Part shown: one piece after another, positions 3,138 through 14,680 of the stretch | Layout of the letters: each line of letters starts with the position of its first letter | How positions within the stretch are numbered: the first letter of the stretch is position 1 | Source: a virus | Reading direction: 5' to 3' (one strand) | Length of the DNA stretch: 23,104 nucleotides | Virus record (IMG/VR): IMGVR_UViG_3300021963_000681 | Location: 1 to 23,104 of that record | Notes under the pieces: generated by a model | Databases searched by the model: none | Seen by the model: only the letters and a program-made list of their open reading frames with translations | Told to the model about the DNA's origin: nothing | Program-made: the position numbers and the translations under genes

Positions 3138-3886
3138 TGTTAGACGGAAAAGTATTCTATCACGGAATTATTAGAAGCACTATCGTTGCTTTCGGTAGTC
3201 TTTTTAGTAACATTTACATCGATAGAAAAAAAGATGATTCTGTAAGTGGACAAACGATACAGCGTTTGCAAGTTCCACTAGCATATGCACCAAAAGAAAA
3301 GTGGATAGTTAGAATAGATTCAGATCCAAATCTACAGAATAATACGTATACAACATTACCAAGATTGTCGTTTGAAATTACTGGTTATAATTATGATGCT
3401 GCGCGCAAAGCGAACAGAATGAATAAGGTTCGCTGCGTTGATGCAAGCCAAGATACTATGAAGAGTTTGTTTACACCAGTTCCTTATAATATCGATATTG
3501 CTCTTTATGTATTGACAAAAACACAGGAAGATGGTTTGCAAATTATTGAGCAAATCCTTCCAACATTTACACCAGACTATACGCTAATGATTAACTCTGT
3601 TCCATCTATGAACATAATACAGGATGTTCCTGTTATTTTAAATAGCGTAGCAGTTCAAGATGATTATGATGGTGATTTTCAAACTCGCAGATTTGTAACG
3701 CATACATTGAACTTTACATTAAAATTAAATCTATACGGTGGTCTTTCCAATACTGGAGTTATTGATACCGTTATTTCTAATGTTGGCGAGGATCGTCAAT
3801 TCCAACAAGGTTTAAGAATATTTACTGCAGAAGGTGATCCAGGAACTGTAACAGTGACAAGTGAGAGCTGGGCAAACGATCTTTAA
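3137..3886 (+). CDS. 15: Tail sheath terminator/stabiliser gp15
   Basis: 249 residues; T4 gp15 has 272. In T4 a gp15 hexamer caps the finished tail and forms the surface that binds the head/neck. The N-terminus HGIIRSTIVAFGSLFSNIYI followed by DRKK corresponds to the T4 gp15 opening (an RR/IR-xx-LxGDLFSNIxI pattern). The middle segment IQRLQVPLAYAPKEKW and the RFVTHTLNFTLKLNLYG stretch near residues 187-203 also fit the family. Its ATG overlaps the stop of the preceding fibre-like gene. Only 14 bases separate it from the terminase gene, so no small terminase gene fits where T4 has gp16. Confidence 0.87.
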   Translation: MLDGKVFYHGIIRSTIVAFGSLFSNIYIDRKKDDSVSGQTIQRLQVPLAYAPKEKWIVRIDSDPNLQNNTYTTLPRLSFEITGYNYDAARKANRMNKVRCVDASQDTMKSLFTPVPYNIDIALYVLTKTQEDGLQIIEQILPTFTPDYTLMINSVPSMNIIQDVPVILNSVAVQDDYDGDFQTRRFVTHTLNFTLKLNLYGGLSNTGVIDTVISNVGEDRQFQQGLRIFTAEGDPGTVTVTSESWANDL

Positions 3887-3900
3887 TTTAATGAGGTGCT

Positions 3901-5481
3901 ATGGCACAAATTTATAATTCGAATGCGAATCTAAAAGCAGCTGGCGTCAGCGTACAGTTTACGCCAGAGCAAATTCAAGAATACGTTAAATGTTCGTCTG
4001 ACCCTATTTACTTTGTAGAAAACTATTGCTATATTGTAACTCTCGATCACGGTCTTCAGCTATTCAAACTATACGACTGCCAAAAAGAAAAACTTACAGT
4101 TATCCATGAGAACCGCAGAGTTATTCTTATGGAAGGTCGCCAGCAAGGTAAAACTACTACTTCTGCTGCCTATATTCTTTGGTACACTTTATTTCAGCCA
4201 AACAAAAACGTAGCGATCCTTGCCAATAAAAAGGATGCTGCTCGAGAAGTTTTAGATCGTTATCAGATAATGTATGAGGGATTGCCTGACTGGATGCAGC
4301 AGGGTGTTCTAACTTGGAACAAAGGTGATATTGAATTAGAAAACGGATCAAAGGTATTTACAGCTGCGACTGGTCGTTCTGGTATTCGAGGTAAATCCGT
4401 AAATTTACTGTATGTTGACGAGGCTGCGATTATTCCAAACACGGTAGCTGAGGAATTCTTTACGTCGGTTTATCCTACGATTTCTGCTGGTCAAACAACA
4501 AAGATTCTTTTAAGTAGTACTCCCTACGGATATAATCATTTTTGGAAATTTTGGAATGATGCCGAGCGAGGAAGGAATGGTTTCGTTACTCTGTTTATTC
4601 CTTACTGGAAAATACCAGGTCGCGATGAGAAGTGGGCAGCTGAGCAAAAGGCGACTCTCGGTGAGGTTAAGTTTAACCAAGAGGTTCTCTGTAACTTCCT
4701 TGGATCTAGTTTAACCTTAATCAGTGCTGATACTATTGCTCAAATGTCGTTTAATAGCCCAGTACTTTCCAAAGAAGGTTTGGATGTATACGAAGCACCA
4801 GAGCCAAAACATACCTACGTTCTGGTGGCTGACACTGCTGAGGGTGTAGGGCAAGACTACTCGGCATTTACTGTTATAGATATAACTGCGGCACCATATA
4901 AATTGGTAGCAAAATATAGAAATAACGATATAAGTGTTCTGTTATATCCAAACGTAATACATAAAGTCGCAAAAGAATACAACGAAGCCTATGTCCTTGT
5001 AGAACTAAACTACAGCGACCAGGTTCCAATGATTTTACACTCTGAATTAGAATATGAGAATATCCTTTTTGTAAACAGATCTGCAACAGGGCAGGTTGTT
5101 TCTGGAGGATTTGGTGGTGGAAAAACGCAGCTGGGAGTGGTAACCGATAAGAAGGTCAAAAGGACTGGCTGTCACAACTTTAAGTCTTTGGTCGAGGAGA
5201 AAAAGCTCCTTATATTTGATGCTGATGTAATATCTGAGATTTCCACATTTATCGAGAGTAAAGGTAGCTACGCTGCAGACGATGGCTACAATGACGATCT
5301 AGTTATGACTTTAGTGCTGTTTTCGTGGCTGACTGCAAGCCCATACTTTAAAGATTTGAATAATATAAACCTACGCGAGCTAATGTATAAACAGAGGATT
5401 CAAGCCATTGAAGATGAGCTGACTCCGTTTGGTTTCCAGAATGATGGTCGGGATGACGATGGAAACCCATTGAATTTTTGA
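3901..5481 (+). CDS. 17: Terminase large subunit gp17 (DNA packaging ATPase and nuclease)
   Basis: 526 residues; T4 gp17 has 610. It docks on the portal, pumps DNA into the prohead by ATP hydrolysis and cuts the concatemer. The ATPase half shows Walker A GRQQGKTT (79-86), Walker B LLYVDEA (169-175) and the coupling motif SST (205-207). The nuclease half shows the RNase H-like acidic triad: D311 in VADTAEG, E368 in VELN, and D465/D466 in YNDDLVM. The region WNKGDIELENGS and HFWKFWNDA also align with T4. The protein is shorter mainly at its ends, with an acidic tail GRDDDGNPLNF. A GAGGTG ribosome site precedes the ATG at 3901. It lies directly after gp15 with no gp16 between. Confidence 0.96.
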   Translation: MAQIYNSNANLKAAGVSVQFTPEQIQEYVKCSSDPIYFVENYCYIVTLDHGLQLFKLYDCQKEKLTVIHENRRVILMEGRQQGKTTTSAAYILWYTLFQPNKNVAILANKKDAAREVLDRYQIMYEGLPDWMQQGVLTWNKGDIELENGSKVFTAATGRSGIRGKSVNLLYVDEAAIIPNTVAEEFFTSVYPTISAGQTTKILLSSTPYGYNHFWKFWNDAERGRNGFVTLFIPYWKIPGRDEKWAAEQKATLGEVKFNQEVLCNFLGSSLTLISADTIAQMSFNSPVLSKEGLDVYEAPEPKHTYVLVADTAEGVGQDYSAFTVIDITAAPYKLVAKYRNNDISVLLYPNVIHKVAKEYNEAYVLVELNYSDQVPMILHSELEYENILFVNRSATGQVVSGGFGGGKTQLGVVTDKKVKRTGCHNFKSLVEEKKLLIFDADVISEISTFIESKGSYAADDGYNDDLVMTLVLFSWLTASPYFKDLNNINLRELMYKQRIQAIEDELTPFGFQNDGRDDDGNPLNF

Positions 5482-7272: not shown

Positions 7273-7869
7273 ATGGCAAATATTGCTGATTTTAAATCGC
7301 AAATGATTGGTGGCGGTGCTCGCCCTAATCAATTTCGCGTTGAGTTAACATTCCCAACCTACGTACCACTGGGAGTTGTTGCTGGACAAAGAGCACAGTT
7401 TCTATGCAGATCGGCACAGCTACCAGCATCTACGATCGAGCCAATTACGGTTCTGTATCGTGGACGCCCAGTAAACTTTGCAGGCGAGCGTTCGTTCCAG
7501 CCATGGACTGTTTCGATTTACAACGACACAACTTTCAACATTAGAAATGCTCTTGAGATTTGGCAAACTGGTATTCAAAATTATAGTACCACTGATGGTC
7601 GTACAAGTCCAACTTCTTATCAAGTTGATCTAAATGTACACCAGCTAGATAGAGGTGGCGCTATTATTAAATCGTATAAGTTTGTTGATGCAATGCCAGT
7701 TAATATTGGTCCGATTGCTTTGGACTTTGACCAGCAGAATCAAATAGAGTCGTTTGATGTAGAATTCGTCTACAACTACTTTACGTCTAATACTGGCGCA
7801 GGTGGTTCTAGTTTTGGAGTTAGCGTGGGAGTCAACACACCAATCGGCAGCTTCCCGCTTCCAATTTAA
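7273..7869 (+). CDS. 19: Tail tube protein gp19
   Basis: 198 residues; T4 gp19 has 163. It stacks as hexamers to form the inner tube through which DNA passes. Landmarks are ADFKSQMIGGGARPNQFRVE (residues 5-24), a SAQLPASTIEPITVLYRGR segment near 47-65 and FNIRNALEIWQTGI near 88-101; the AQ-x-P-x-S/T-x-I pattern is shared with tube-fold proteins. The extra length is a Gly/Ser-rich C-terminal tail after residue 175 (NTGAGGSSFGVSVGVN), probably exposed. It directly follows the sheath gene and precedes the portal gene, the standard T4 order. Confidence 0.94.
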   Translation: MANIADFKSQMIGGGARPNQFRVELTFPTYVPLGVVAGQRAQFLCRSAQLPASTIEPITVLYRGRPVNFAGERSFQPWTVSIYNDTTFNIRNALEIWQTGIQNYSTTDGRTSPTSYQVDLNVHQLDRGGAIIKSYKFVDAMPVNIGPIALDFDQQNQIESFDVEFVYNYFTSNTGAGGSSFGVSVGVNTPIGSFPLPI

Positions 7870-7891: not shown

Positions 7892-9481
7892 ATGCAAATT
7901 TTTGGGTTTGAAATAAAACGTAAAGATTCATCAGAAAAGATGGCAAGTGTTGTTACGCCATCTTCTGATGATGGATCGACAGTTGTTAATTCAGCAGCTG
8001 CATATTATGGTATGGTTATGGATGTTGAGGGTGTCGTTAAAAACGAAAATGACCTCATCAGAAGATACCGCGAAATTGCTCAGTATGCAGATACAGATTC
8101 AGCGATTGATGACATTGTCAATGAAACATTAGTTTCTGAAGAAGACTGTGTTGAATTAGATTTAGAAAAAGTAAAACTTTCTGCCAGTATTAAAGATAAA
8201 ATACAGGAAGAATTTAAAGAAGTTTTACGACTGTTAAAGTTTAGTGAAAGAGGACATGATATATTCCGCTCTTGGTATATTGATGGTCGTGTTTATTATC
8301 ACATTTTACTTGACGAAAATAATATTAAGCAGGGGATTGTTGAGTTAAGATACGTTGATCCTCGCAAGATTCGTCGTATAAAGAATATCAAAAAAGAGCG
8401 CACTCCAAAAGGTGTTGATGTAATTAAAGAAATTGATGAATATTATCTTTATAATGATAAAGGAATTACAGAACAAACAACACAAGGTGTAAAACTCTCT
8501 ATTGATTCAATTGTTTATGCTCCATCTGGTATGCTAGATGCAAATACTGGTATGATGCTTTCGCATTTACACAAAGCAATCAAACCAGTTAACCAGTTGA
8601 AGATGATTGAAGATGCTTCTGTAATCTATAGAATCTCTAGAGCACCAGAGCGTAGAGTGTTTTATGTTGACGTTGGTAATCTGCCAAAACTTAAAGCAGA
8701 AGAATACGTTAACCAGATTATGAACAAGTTTAGAAATAAAGTTGTTTACGATGCAACCACTGGCGAAGTCCGTGATGACCGTAAGCATCTTTCTATGATG
8801 GAAGATTTTTGGATGCCACGTCGTGAAGGTGGCAAGGGCACTGAGATCACTACATTACAAGGTGGTCAAAATCTTGGCGAAATCCAAGACATTCAGTACT
8901 TCCAACAAAAGTTGTTTCAAGCATTGAACGTACCACTCTCTCGTTTGCAACCATCTACGGGATTTAGTCTGGGTCGTTCTACTGAGATAACTAGAGACGA
9001 GATTAAGTTTTCTAAATTCGTAAAGAGACTTCGTAATAGATTTTCTATTTTATTTTTAGAAGCATTACGTGTTCAGTTGATTGTTAAAGGAATTATCCGT
9101 GCTGATGAGTGGGATAATATGCGCGAAGGTTTTAGATTCGTGTATGATAATGACAATCACTTTAGCGAATTAAAAGATAATGAAATATTGTTACAGCGTA
9201 TAACTATGTTGCAGCAATTAGATCCTTATGTTGGAAGATATTACTCGTCAGATTGGGTACGTAAAAATGTGCTTCAACAGTCTGAAGAAGATATTAAGAA
9301 TATGGATAAACAAATGCAAAACGATTTGGTTAATCAAATGCATAAAGCAGATTTTGATGGTACGGTTTCTGGTATCACCCAAACAGCTCAGCAAACTTAT
9401 CTGAAACAGTTTGCTCCGCAAGATACAGAAGAAGCTGCTCCACCACAGTCGCCTCAGAAAACTCAAAAGGAGAACAAATAA
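7892..9481 (+). CDS. 20: Portal vertex protein gp20
   Basis: 529 residues; T4 gp20 has 524. A dodecamer at one capsid vertex starts prohead assembly and is the DNA channel and terminase docking site. Recognisable parts are AAYYGMVMDVEGVVKNENDL (36-55), RYREIAQYADTDSAIDDIVN (58-77), ELRYVDPRKIRRIKN (151-165), and PLSRLQPSTGFSLGRSTEIT (348-367), the last being a region often used as a marker for T4-like phages. The C-terminus is Gln/Lys-rich and low in complexity. The ATG at 7892 follows a T/A-only gap with no clear ribosome site, unusual here and possibly limiting portal dose. The stop overlaps the next start. Confidence 0.95.
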   Translation: MQIFGFEIKRKDSSEKMASVVTPSSDDGSTVVNSAAAYYGMVMDVEGVVKNENDLIRRYREIAQYADTDSAIDDIVNETLVSEEDCVELDLEKVKLSASIKDKIQEEFKEVLRLLKFSERGHDIFRSWYIDGRVYYHILLDENNIKQGIVELRYVDPRKIRRIKNIKKERTPKGVDVIKEIDEYYLYNDKGITEQTTQGVKLSIDSIVYAPSGMLDANTGMMLSHLHKAIKPVNQLKMIEDASVIYRISRAPERRVFYVDVGNLPKLKAEEYVNQIMNKFRNKVVYDATTGEVRDDRKHLSMMEDFWMPRREGGKGTEITTLQGGQNLGEIQDIQYFQQKLFQALNVPLSRLQPSTGFSLGRSTEITRDEIKFSKFVKRLRNRFSILFLEALRVQLIVKGIIRADEWDNMREGFRFVYDNDNHFSELKDNEILLQRITMLQQLDPYVGRYYSSDWVRKNVLQQSEEDIKNMDKQMQNDLVNQMHKADFDGTVSGITQTAQQTYLKQFAPQDTEEAAPPQSPQKTQKENK

Positions 9482-9933
9482 TGACAACCAAAGATTTAAT
9501 TGATGCCTTGGCAGCTGGTGACGCTAGTGGTATTGAATCATCATTTAATGCTGCAATGGCAGAAAGAATTTCTGCAAGAATAGATGATATGCGTACACAA
9601 GTTGCACAAAGTATGTTCGCAGCTCCACAGGAAGAAGCTGAGCAAGCTGAAGGAGTAGAAATAACTGAAGAATATACACATAAAATGTCTGGAACTGTTA
9701 AAGGGGCGAATGGTAAAAGTCATGATTGGCACCTTCCTTATAACGATAAACATGAAACCCCAGATAATTTATCCCACAAAGAAATAACAAAACGAGTTCA
9801 TAATTTTAGTCATGGTATTCCTGACACACATGCTAAAGCTGTTGCAGATCATTTCCACAAGTCTGGTGAAGACCATAGTGTTCAAAATGGACATAATGTT
9901 CATATGCACGATGAAGTTAGGAAGATGGATTAA
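9481..9933 (+). CDS. 67: Prohead core protein gp67-like with histidine-rich C-terminal extension
   Basis: 150 residues. Residues 1-47 (KDLIDALAAGDASGIESSFN, then MAERISARIDDMRTQVAQSM) match the N-terminus and gene position of the T4 prohead core protein gp67, a small scaffold component digested by gp21 during maturation. Residues 50-65 are acidic, as expected. From residue 66 a different domain follows with 14 histidines in 78 residues, including SHDWH (80-84), DHFH (123-126) and HNVHMHD (138-144). I do not recognise this part; clustered His and Asp suggest metal binding, but that is inference. IxE/LxE-type gp21 sites in the acidic linker (ITE at 61-63) could release it. The start shares one base with the gp20 stop, and AAAAGGAG lies upstream. 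Confidence 0.72.
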   Translation: MTTKDLIDALAAGDASGIESSFNAAMAERISARIDDMRTQVAQSMFAAPQEEAEQAEGVEITEEYTHKMSGTVKGANGKSHDWHLPYNDKHETPDNLSHKEITKRVHNFSHGIPDTHAKAVADHFHKSGEDHSVQNGHNVHMHDEVRKMD

Positions 9934-10472
9934 TGTTTTTTAATCAATTCTCTAAGTCACTAAAACCTAATGTTCAAGAAAGCGTTAGGTCTTTTGGTCA
10001 TTTAATTGAAGTAACTGAAGATGGTATTTCAATTGATGGAGAACTGACACAGTTTGAGAGTTTGGAAGAAGCAAAAAAATATATTAAAACACAATCATAT
10101 TCTGCAAAACTAAACGATAAGATATCGGAAGAGACATACGAAGAACTTTCCGATATCAAGGTAGCGAATATTATCAAAGAATATCAAGACGTTAAAGTAA
10201 CAGATACACTAATAGAATCATATATTGAACTTGCTTCTTCCAACATCTTTACAGTAGATCCAGTTGTCTATGAAATTAGAAAACTAAACAAACTGGATGT
10301 TGTAATTGAAGGTAAAATCCATTATGAACTAAATGATGGCTCTGTAGTTGCAATTAGTGAGGCTACACAAGAGAACCTAAATAATCTATTACAAAACCAA
10401 AAAGAAATAATCGACTACATGAGAGAAAGTAAAGAAAACTTTATTCATGTGGTGGAAAAATTAGAGGAATAA
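9933..10472 (+). CDS. 68: Prohead core protein, gp68-like
   Basis: 179 residues; T4 gp68 has 141. Identification rests mainly on position (portal, 67, 68, then protease 21) plus general character: no signal peptide or enzyme motif, a mixed charged alpha/beta composition (ESLEEAKKYIKTQS; EENLNNLL-like C-terminal helix) and length. In T4 gp68 is a minor prohead core protein that affects head shape. Several LxE/IxE tripeptides, possible gp21 sites, are present (for example FESLEEAK around residues 41-48). The ATG overlaps the gp67 stop (TAATG), so translation is probably coupled. Similarity to T4 gp68 is weak by eye, and it may be a lineage-specific core protein. Confidence 0.55.
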   Translation: MFFNQFSKSLKPNVQESVRSFGHLIEVTEDGISIDGELTQFESLEEAKKYIKTQSYSAKLNDKISEETYEELSDIKVANIIKEYQDVKVTDTLIESYIELASSNIFTVDPVVYEIRKLNKLDVVIEGKIHYELNDGSVVAISEATQENLNNLLQNQKEIIDYMRESKENFIHVVEKLEE

Positions 10473-10473
10473 A

Positions 10474-10902
10474 ATGCCAGTTACTAAAACAATTCTAAAG
10501 AATACTAACAACGAAACGATTGTTAAAGTCGCAGGAACTGCAGCTGCAGCTACGATTGATCTACAAACTGACTGCTTAGCAACTACCCAAGCATTAAGTG
10601 GCGCTACACAAACAGTTAATATTGTTCAACTACATTTTACTGGGTTGCCTTCTTCAACGATTACTGTTTCTAGAAATTCAATTAATATTTTCACAATTGG
10701 TGCTGAAGGCGAAGGAACTGTTGATCTTGGAACAGGCAATGGTCTAGTCGAAACAATTGAAAACACTCAAGATATTGTTGTTACAATTGGTGGAGCAGAA
10801 GCGCAGTGTTATTTAGTACTTCGCAAAGCTGGCGGATATGCAACCAAAGTAGAAACTGCGGTATTTGGTGCGTATGACGACGAAACTGCAGTAGGGAGTT
10901 AA
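10474..10902 (+). CDS. Conserved beta-rich virion structural protein between core genes and protease
   Basis: 142 residues, absent from this place in T4. The opening TKTILKNTNNETIVKVAGTA, a central STITVSRNSINIFTIGAEG and the end AGGYATKVETAVFGAYDDE resemble a conserved virion protein I associate with marine T4-like phages at the same locus; this is from memory of the family, not a search. It is Thr/Val/Ala-rich with alternating hydrophobic residues, suggesting a beta-sandwich, and has no catalytic motif. Placed between prohead core genes and the prohead protease, it could be a capsid decoration protein. Starts one base after the upstream stop; the gap to gp21 is four bases. Confidence 0.68.
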   Translation: MPVTKTILKNTNNETIVKVAGTAAAATIDLQTDCLATTQALSGATQTVNIVQLHFTGLPSSTITVSRNSINIFTIGAEGEGTVDLGTGNGLVETIENTQDIVVTIGGAEAQCYLVLRKAGGYATKVETAVFGAYDDETAVGS

Positions 10903-10906
10903 TTAA

Positions 10907-11557
10907 ATGAAATTTATTAAAGAAGTCCAAGAGACTACAAATCTAATTGTTGAGAATAAATTAGGTAAGAAAAGTTATTTCATTGAAGGCATCTTCCTTC
11001 AGTCAGAATTAAAAAATCGTAATGGTCGCATGTATCCAGAGTCTATTATGGATAAAGAAGTCGGTCGTTACCTAAAAGAATACGTTGAAAAGAATCGCGC
11101 TTATGGTGAGTTGGGACATCCAGACACACCAAGTATCAATTTAGATCGCGTATCACACCTTATCGTAGACCTTCGTAAAGAAGGAACAAACTATGTAGGT
11201 AAAGCAAAGATTTTAGAAACACCAATGGGTAATATTGCTCGCGGTCTTCTTGACGGTGGCGCAAACCTTGGAGTTTCTAGCCGAGCACTTGGTTCGTTAA
11301 AGTCGAACAATGAGGGTGTTCAAATCGTGCAGGATGATTTTATGCTTTCCACAGCTGCTGACATCGTTGCCGATCCTTCCGCTCCAGATGCTTTCGTTCA
11401 GGGTATTATGGAAAGCAAAGAGTGGGTTTTCGTTGATGGAAAGTTCGTGGAGAAACATATTGAGGAAGCCAAAAGAAATATCAAGAAATCTTCCTCTTGC
11501 AATTTAGAGGAAGCGAAGGCTCGTGCTTTCCAAAATTTCTTGAGTAAAATTAAATAA
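10907..11557 (+). CDS. 21: Prohead maturation protease gp21
   Basis: 216 residues; T4 gp21 has 212. It is a serine protease of the herpesvirus-like assemblin fold that cuts core, scaffold and capsid proteins at (L/I)xE sites before DNA packaging. Visible motifs are the start GIFLQSELKNRNGRMYP (28-44), the catalytic-histidine loop GELGHP (H71) and the serine loop GVSSRALGS (S124 or S125). The C-terminal segment after residue 180 is Lys/Glu-rich with LEEAK, probably removed by self-cleavage. GGAG lies before the ATG inside the end of the preceding gene. Its stop codon falls within the first of two tandem late promoter motifs used by gp22. Confidence 0.93.
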   Translation: MKFIKEVQETTNLIVENKLGKKSYFIEGIFLQSELKNRNGRMYPESIMDKEVGRYLKEYVEKNRAYGELGHPDTPSINLDRVSHLIVDLRKEGTNYVGKAKILETPMGNIARGLLDGGANLGVSSRALGSLKSNNEGVQIVQDDFMLSTAADIVADPSAPDAFVQGIMESKEWVFVDGKFVEKHIEEAKRNIKKSSSCNLEEAKARAFQNFLSKIK

Positions 11558-12765: not shown

Positions 12766-14055
12766 ATGACTACTCGTCAACAATTAATCGAAAAGTGGGC
12801 ACCAGTTCTTGATCACGAAGGTAGTGATCCAATCAAGAACAACTACATCAAAGAAGTAACAGCAGTTCTGCTCGAGAACCAAGAGCGTGAAATGCGTCAA
12901 TATTCGGCAGCTCTTGGTGAGTTGAACGAAGCTGCTCCAGCTAACTCAGTTGGTGCATACCCAGACACAAACGGTATGGCTAAGTTTGATCCAGTTTTGA
13001 TCTCTCTGGTTCGCCGTGCAATGCCAAAGCTGATCGCTTATGATGTTTGCGGTGTTCAGCCAATGACACAGCCAACAGGTCTGATTTTCGCAATGAAGTC
13101 ACGTTACAGCACAATGGGCGGTACTGAGGCTTTGTTTAACGAAGCAGATACAGATTTCTCTGGTACAGGAACACACAGCGGTGTTTATGATTTCGGTGGT
13201 TCTGAGACTACTGGTACAGGTCTAGCAACTGCTGACGCAGAGCGTCTTGGTCAAGGTGGTCAGGGTGATGGTTCTTTCGGTGCAATGGCTTTCTCAATCG
13301 AGAAGACCAGCGTTACTGCAAAGACACGTGCTCTGAAAGCTGAGTACTCGATCGAACTCGCACAAGACATGAAGTCTGTTCATGGTCTCGACGCAGAAGG
13401 CGAATTGAGCAACATTCTGTCAACAGAAATCCTGACAGAAATCAATCGCGAAATCATCCGTACAATTTACAAAACTGCTAAGGCAGGTGCTTCGGTTGGA
13501 ACATCAGTAGCAGGTACTTTTGACCTGGACGTTGATTCCAATGGTCGTTGGTCCGTTGAGAAGTTCAAGGGTCTGATGTTCCAAGTCGAGCGCGAAGCAA
13601 ATGCAATCGGTCAGCAAACTCGTCGTGGTCGTGGTAATTTCCTGATCACTTCTGCTGATGTTGCTTCTGCACTGGCAATGGCAGGTGTTCTGGATTATGC
13701 TCCAGCACTGAACAACAATCTGACTGTTGACGACACAAGCACAACATTTGCTGGTGTTCTGAATGGTAAGTATCGTGTGTATGTTGATCCATATACTGCA
13801 AACGTATCCGCAACCCAGTTTATGGTTGTTGGTTACAAGGGTGCTTCGGCATTCGACGCAGGTATGTTCTACTGCCCATACGTTCCTCTCCAGCTGGTTC
13901 GTGCTGTTGATCCTAACAGCTTCCAGCCAAAGATTGGCTTCAAGACACGTTATGGTCTGGTCTCCAATCCATTCGTTCAATTGGACGGAACTGGCAACCT
14001 CAACGCTAACGAGAACTATTACTATCGTCGCGTTAAGATTACTAACCTTATGTAA
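12766..14055 (+). CDS. 23: Major capsid protein gp23
   Basis: 429 residues; T4 gp23 has 521. It forms the hexamers of the head, HK97 fold. Family segments are clear: VRRAMPKLIAYDVCGVQPM near residue 83, RALKAEYSIELAQDMKSVHG, TEILTEINREIIRTI, VLNGKYRVYVDPY and FQPKIGFKTRYG near the end. The N-terminal region should be removed by gp21; a matching site LNE (53-55) before AAPANS lies where T4 cleaves after LTE at residue 65. The shorter length compared with T4 reflects a reduced insertion region after the SRYSTMGG segment. Codons look optimised compared with neighbours, fitting high expression. An AAAGGA ribosome site precedes the ATG. No separate vertex protein gene (gp24) follows. Confidence 0.97.
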   Translation: MTTRQQLIEKWAPVLDHEGSDPIKNNYIKEVTAVLLENQEREMRQYSAALGELNEAAPANSVGAYPDTNGMAKFDPVLISLVRRAMPKLIAYDVCGVQPMTQPTGLIFAMKSRYSTMGGTEALFNEADTDFSGTGTHSGVYDFGGSETTGTGLATADAERLGQGGQGDGSFGAMAFSIEKTSVTAKTRALKAEYSIELAQDMKSVHGLDAEGELSNILSTEILTEINREIIRTIYKTAKAGASVGTSVAGTFDLDVDSNGRWSVEKFKGLMFQVEREANAIGQQTRRGRGNFLITSADVASALAMAGVLDYAPALNNNLTVDDTSTTFAGVLNGKYRVYVDPYTANVSATQFMVVGYKGASAFDAGMFYCPYVPLQLVRAVDPNSFQPKIGFKTRYGLVSNPFVQLDGTGNLNANENYYYRRVKITNLM

Positions 14056-14121: not shown

Positions 14122-14146
14122 GTAATTATTGACAAACAAAACTATT

Positions 14147-14680
14147 ATGATAACTACTCTTACTTGCCCTATCCCATCTAATATTAACCCACTGTCGCCC
14201 AATGGGTTTCAATTTAGTATTGCTAAGTTGCCAGATCTGACTTACTTTGCTCAGCAGGTAACTATTCCTGGCATTTCTTTGCCAGCGTTTGAAGCCAACA
14301 ATCCTTTAACGCCATTCCCAATTGCTGGCGACATCATTACTTACGAACCGCTAAACGTGCAATTTCTCGTAGATGAGAGCATGGCTAATTACAAAGCAGT
14401 ATACAACTGGCTAAAGGGACTTGGGTTCCCAGAGAACCATAGTCAGTATGAGATGTTCGTAGATAATGCAGAAGGTGGTCCATCGAATGAGTTGCAAAAG
14501 AATTATTCTGATGGAACTTTACAAATATTAGGTGCAAATAATAAAGGTGTGCAAACAATTCAGTTTATCGATCTGATTCCTGTTTCTTTGGAATCTCTAA
14601 CCTTCCAATCAACCAATCAAGATGTGCAATACTTGGTAGGCAGCGCTACATTCAGATACAACTTTTACAAGTTTACTTGA
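14147..14680 (+). CDS. Second tail-tube-fold protein (gp19-like; possibly tail completion gp3 or a baseplate/tube protein)
   Basis: 177 residues from the ATG at 14147; an in-frame TTG at 14129 would add six residues but lies only eight bases from the late promoter core. The region FQFSIAKLPDLTYFAQQVTI followed by PGISLPAF, then PIAGDIITYEPLNVQFLVDE and NYKAVYNWLKGLGFP, follows the tube-fold pattern seen in gp19 and the related T4 gp48/gp54: a beta-rich body, a PGI-x-LP loop and an amphipathic WL helix. It is thus a paralogue of the tail tube in the same phage. In several aquatic T4-like phages a tail completion protein (gp3) is placed between gp23 and uvsY, so that role is possible. No clear ribosome site is seen. 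Confidence 0.68.
   Translation: MITTLTCPIPSNINPLSPNGFQFSIAKLPDLTYFAQQVTIPGISLPAFEANNPLTPFPIAGDIITYEPLNVQFLVDESMANYKAVYNWLKGLGFPENHSQYEMFVDNAEGGPSNELQKNYSDGTLQILGANNKGVQTIQFIDLIPVSLESLTFQSTNQDVQYLVGSATFRYNFYKFT

Follow-up and report, generated by a model that had tools for sequence, protein, structure and literature searches.

A histidine-rich domain at the C-terminus of a gp67-type prohead core protein as a candidate exchangeable head cargo of T4-like phages

The gp67-type prohead core protein of a T4-like phage is fused to a histidine-rich domain, which stands in the place of the usual acidic tail, is lacking in sister phages with nearly the same core, and is joined to that core at a motif of the kind cut by the prohead protease gp21. 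We consider it rather probable that gp67 carries this domain into the prohead core, that gp21 frees it and that the 10 kDa piece is retained in the head and, probably, ejected. The fusion lies in the window, i.e. the whole stretch of 23,104 nucleotides analysed here (virus record IMGVR_UViG_3300021963_000681, positions 1 to 23,104), whose relevant features are reported in Table 1 together with the C-terminal tails of related proteins.

Table 1. Features of the gp67 locus in the window, and tail types found at the gp67 C-terminus in related contigs (↓, proposed cut site)
Feature	Position	Strand	Remarks
gp20 portal protein (context)	7892..9481	+	phrog_213, E 1e-198
gp67 core, residues 1-46	9481..9618	+	phrog_1064 match; helices predicted; proposed targeting leader
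Acidic linker, residues 47-63	9619..9669	+	predicted disordered, pLDDT <50 at 48-62
Candidate gp21 cleavage motif I61-T62-E63, cut after E63	9661..9669	+	sole [LI]xE in the protein
Histidine-rich putative cargo domain, residues 65-150	9673..9930	+	14 His; dN/dS 0.073; predicted beta-beta-alpha-alpha-beta; not in sister contigs
179-aa ORF adjoining gp67 (context)	9933..10472	+	kept in nearly all gp67-gp21 islands
142-aa ORF (context)	10474..10902	+	kept in nearly all gp67-gp21 islands
gp21 prohead protease, proposed cutter	10907..11557	+	phrog_207, E 6e-75
gp23 major capsid protein	12766..14055	+	phrog_138, E 4e-159; L-N-E↓AAP site ending at residue 55
Tail: 19-His domain			L173, L156, L188, L190
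Tail: 18-His protein			L025
Tail: KNWIAGAIK			L157, L117, L179
Tail: SDFVHSDDP			L063, L092, L083
Tails of other types			L011, L091, L023, L174

The protein is encoded by a plus-strand ORF of 150 aa (9481-9933). Like its counterparts in T4 and AR1, this ORF lies between gp20 and gp21; the order here is gp20, gp67-type ORF, 179-aa ORF, 142-aa ORF, gp21, gp22, gp23. The gp23 of this phage is nearest to those of Methylophilales phage Melnitz, Pelagibacter phage HTVC008M and cyanophages (60-64%); a 2010 review described cyanophages as lacking gp67 (PMC2984593). The original prediction of a gp67-type start is borne out by this gene position and by the match of residues 4-57 to the phrog_1064 'prohead' family (E 7e-7), to which T4 gp67 itself also belongs (E 1.7e-30). 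The Pfam GP67 model (PF17634) did not match the window protein up to E 10; this model is narrow, since it gave 1.8e-48 for T4 gp67 and 0.067, below the cut-off, for the relative L011. The acidic C-terminal tail of the gp67 type is missing in the window protein, where the tail is His-rich instead; since the acidic end is a feature of the tail, the window core still counts as gp67. The 179-aa and 142-aa ORFs, which recur in almost all of the 158 gp67-gp21 loci, gave no convincing family match, and the former may be a gp68 analogue. A second tail-tube-like gene lies just after gp23 (14129-14680; phrog_45, E 2.6e-33), besides gp19 at 7273-7869.

The 14 histidines of the C-terminal domain, with their clusters SHDWH, DHFH and HNVHMHD, were all found as described before. 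In 86 residues this number corresponds to a binomial P of 2.5e-11, given 1.4% His in the other ORFs of the window, among which the next most His-rich stretch of 86 aa contains 6 His. The domain is not basic (pI 6.7, charge about -1 at pH 7), and with this charge the contact with DNA that had been suggested is unlikely. AlphaFold2, run on an alignment of 10 rows, only two of which covered the domain, predicted a helical core, a disordered linker (residues 48-62) and then an ordered domain, made up of strands 67-74 and 80-87, helices 99-109 and 115-126 and a strand at 139-148; the block pLDDT was 84-89 for residues 71-120 and fell towards the C-terminal end.

Relatives of the domain were found in four other viral contigs and nowhere else in viral contigs or in 84,980 genomes. 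Searches of phages (best E 9), plasmids and PDB sequences gave none, and Pfam, NCBIfam and PADLOC yielded no matching family. Structural searches with the model of the whole 150-aa protein stayed at noise level (Foldseek against PDB, best E 0.9; VIA, best Z 2.8 for the domain part), and the domain by itself may still have a known fold. One BFVD match, A0A6J5KYB1 of an uncultured phage (222 aa, E 3e-4, 36% identity), may be alike in the core only. A likeness of HAKAVADHFHKSG to HAKAADAAAAHFHKATG was weighed and then dropped.

The domain is known from two distinct sequences, the window type and that of contig L004, between which we counted 19.3 synonymous and 8.7 non-synonymous changes; the resulting dN/dS of 0.073 (0.112 for the core) indicates that the domain is under purifying selection. 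This count and the predicted ordered fold both speak against a functionless origin of the fusion, by neutral read-through or as a scar of recombination. Such an origin would agree with the rarity of the domain, its absence from sister phages and the mosaic character of the locus, but we regard it as very improbable.

The distribution of the domain among close relatives shows that it is a swapped-in piece and not the usual, or a ubiquitous, gp67 C-terminus. Besides the window, it is carried by three contigs with an identical protein and by L004 (92% identity in the domain). In the sister contigs L005-L010, gp67 is 69 aa long and ends in an acidic tail, in line with the earlier statement that core proteins normally end so, and has no His-rich domain; the DNA of their core is 90-100% identical to the window (96-100% leaving out L010). 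In L004, the end of gp20 is 97.9% identical to the window, whereas the gp67 core (98.6%) and the next ORF (98.5%) are closest to L010, which has no domain. A recombination breakpoint thus lies near gp67 in L004, between a window-like gp20 end and an L010-like core and 179-aa ORF. From this mosaic it follows that the domain either was exchanged or has a history of more than one gain or loss.

The linker ends, at the junction with the domain, in I61-T-E63↓E, which in L004 reads I-A-E↓E. L/I-X-E is the motif of the gp21 maturation protease (PMC9026906), and the gp23 of the same phage bears a site of the same kind. As the motif lies exactly at the junction, the release by gp21 and the retention in the head proposed originally are the best reading; they are favoured, on computational grounds, by the anatomy of the protein and by the comparison with relatives. 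In T4, gp67 reads NFLIE↓GEEPEDED, and the residues following the motif (47-80) have a computed mass of 3,993 Da. The mature T4 head contains a gp67 fragment of 3.9 kDa in 139 copies (PMC9026906, Table 1), and residues 47-80 fit this fragment, an identification of our own based on mass. With such a fragment in the mature head, the retention of a piece of gp67 has a precedent.

To see how often gp67 bears other tails, scans with gp21 and gp67 were combined with an iterated profile, which gave 163 gp67 hits, 102 of them distinct and with a full core. Tails of at most 32 aa were found in 79 of the 102, and just one of these 79 contained [LI]xE. Long tails contained the motif in 16 of 23 cases, compared to 12.6 expected (P 0.06), a weak enrichment. 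The tails that we call cargo-type, a class drawn after the data had been seen and defined as long, basic or His-rich (n = 10), all had [LI]xE within 60 aa of the core, while shuffles expect 3.9 and none of 5000 reached 10; the ten rows are not independent and represent about seven cargo families. In the remaining gp67s, the motif occurred anywhere in 7 of 92. Altogether, about seven or more unrelated tails occupy the gp67 C-terminus, and two of them, besides the window type, are His-rich. No homology was detected between the His-rich cargos when the window domain was compared with the product of L191 ORF 2000 (BLASTP E 1.3) and with the L189 family (hhalign probability 0.1%). For the fused KNWIAGAIK cargo, [LI]xE lay within 2 residues of the cargo start in 21 of 24 contexts, against 4.1% at control positions.

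Some of these cargos also stand off gp67. Two His-rich ones are also encoded by neighbouring genes of their own, each behind a short leader whose last residues are L-N/D-E. L191 has the L173-type cargo in an ORF of the island (2320) distinct from gp67, with the leader MKTLIEQSIFELNKLNE↓. In L193, a short gp67 is followed by a separate ORF for the cargo of L025, the leader of which closes with QNLDE↓; in L025 itself, the same cargo start is preceded by I-N-E↓. Beside ORF 2320, between gp67 and gp21, L191 has a further separate ORF (2000-2317) of 106 aa, with 14 His and the leader MSLVNKAVEELNKLKE↓, for which no relative was found among the loci compared. The KNWIAGAIK cargo stands free, as MAKNWIAGAIK, in other phage contigs. 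A short leader followed by a cut motif and a cargo is the layout of the T4 internal proteins with capsid targeting sequences (PMC9026906, PMC3012670).

Further ORFs with similar features were observed in other phages. In Stenotrophomonas phage DLP6 (L181), two ORFs with leader-like starts lie between a short gp67 and gp21: one, at 3156-3413, is annotated as a holin and starts with MSQKTYNDLINE↓VAPAV, the other, at 3416-4201, encodes 261 aa with 17 His and starts with MKTWNQFKSQLPIHE↓AV; to judge from their sequences, both look like internal head proteins. The T4-like contigs L198-L212 and L219 contain long ORFs (164-749 aa) with KNWIAGAIK cargos after [LI]xE motifs, which look like cargo polyproteins; that of L211 begins with the leader-like MEKSVRNTINSIMEVA. 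The KNWIAGAIK domain (phrog_20603) was also found in the Thermus phages P23-45 and P74-26 and in Rhizobium phages such as RHph_N46, there outside T4-like head islands as annotated.

These comparisons bear on the possibility that the domain works within the scaffold, staying on gp67 for core packing or head size, perhaps in response to metal or pH, and being discarded after maturation. In T4, gp67 and gp68 do influence head shape (PMC2984593), and most core fragments, as well as most of those of gp67, leave the head (PMC9958956). On the other hand, sister phages have nearly identical cores without the domain, unrelated cargos are found at the same spot, and such cargos also occur off gp67 behind leaders of their own; we therefore consider a scaffold role unlikely.

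The number of histidines, clusters such as HNVHMHD and the His-richness of other, unrelated cargos of the slot call to mind a module that binds metal (Zn, Cu or Ni) and travels in the head to store it or to act as a metalloenzyme; metal binding had been proposed from the start. This proposal did not hold up well: no metal-binding family of Pfam or NCBIfam and no solved fold matches the domain, and its histidines, compared between the two distinct sequences from which it is known, are not conserved above background. These two sequences, with an overall identity of 92%, share 14 of 14 His, and in the second His-rich family 14 of 20 His columns are invariant, compared to 80 of 120 columns. Moreover, the two His-rich cargos modelled differ in predicted fold, beta-beta-alpha-alpha-beta in the window and all-helical in the L189 type. 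Since the conservation of the histidines does not exceed the background and the two modelled cargos look unrelated, a specific metal site is not supported, and we judge the metal reading improbable. It is possible that a common physical need lies behind the histidines: the surrounding packed DNA may call for a near-neutral charge, or protonation may matter during entry into the cell.

We thus return to gp67 as a carrier whose cargo is cut free. A folded cargo domain would have taken the place of the acidic tail of gp67, and the gp67 core would act as a targeting leader bringing the protein into the prohead scaffold. During maturation, gp21 would cut after I-T-E63 and the scaffold part would be removed, while the His-rich piece of 87 residues (64-150; 10 kDa) would remain in the head among the DNA. 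We infer that the freed piece is present in the virion and probably enters the host by ejection. There its role would resemble that of a T4 internal protein, the most plausible points of action being a host defence or the incoming genome. Against this scheme stand the statement for T4 that most gp67 fragments leave the head (PMC9958956), the near-neutral character of the domain, in which it differs from the T4 internal proteins, the weak enrichment of [LI]xE over all 23 long tails and the restriction of the domain to two distinct sequences.

The nearest known systems share parts of this scheme. T4 gp67 (PIP) has the phrog_1064 core, the position between gp20 and gp21 and a piece after L-I-E fitting the head-retained fragment; however, that piece is an acidic peptide of 34 aa, whereas the one of the window is 87 aa long, predicted to be folded, near-neutral, His-rich and exchangeable between phages. 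The T4 proteins IPI, IPII, IPIII and Alt have a core leader, an L/I-X-E cut and a variable cargo, and the cargo genes of L191, L193 and DLP6 resemble them in their short leaders ending in L-x-E; in the window, by contrast, the leader is a whole gp67 (63 residues) instead of a propeptide of 10-19 residues, and the cargo is not basic as the T4 internal proteins are. In function, the window domain may be comparable to an internal protein even if it is not akin to IPI-III.

In the giant phages SPN3US and phiKZ, head proteins have long N-terminal propeptides, which the prohead protease takes off ahead of ejection (PMC5694885), similar to the removal proposed here; there, however, the propeptides are part of ejection proteins, while the leader of the window is a conserved scaffold protein, found also on its own. 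A further comparison is with the polyvalent proteins of phages and conjugative elements, which comprise several domains and for which packaging and injection are predicted (PMC5512222). The long relatives in L203, L209-L212 and L219 resemble them in looking like chains of cargos, but those tested had no enzymatic or polyvalent domain, and [LI]xE adjoins the cargo start. The window protein consists of one core and one domain without family, and polyvalent proteins have at least two effector or enzyme domains. What our sequence comparisons suggest as new is a scaffold protein serving as an exchangeable cargo carrier; no description of it was found in the literature searched, which is weak evidence, many subscription papers being outside reach.

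T4 internal proteins include anti-restriction and host-takeover factors. Outside the T-even phages, such proteins are hard to find because the cargos share no sequence. We put forward tentatively, as a real possibility, that the gp67 C-terminus could be a general loading site for unrelated, often His-rich effectors in a large group of uncultivated T4-like phages. Each effector would be cut free by gp21, retained in the head and then injected, in which case the island between gp20 and gp21 would be an arsenal of first-strike proteins. The repeated His-richness among unrelated cargos is a testable point, and a fixed location, at the gp67 C-terminus and in the genes directly behind it, together with the cut motif, would allow candidate injected proteins to be listed in many uncultivated T4-like phages.
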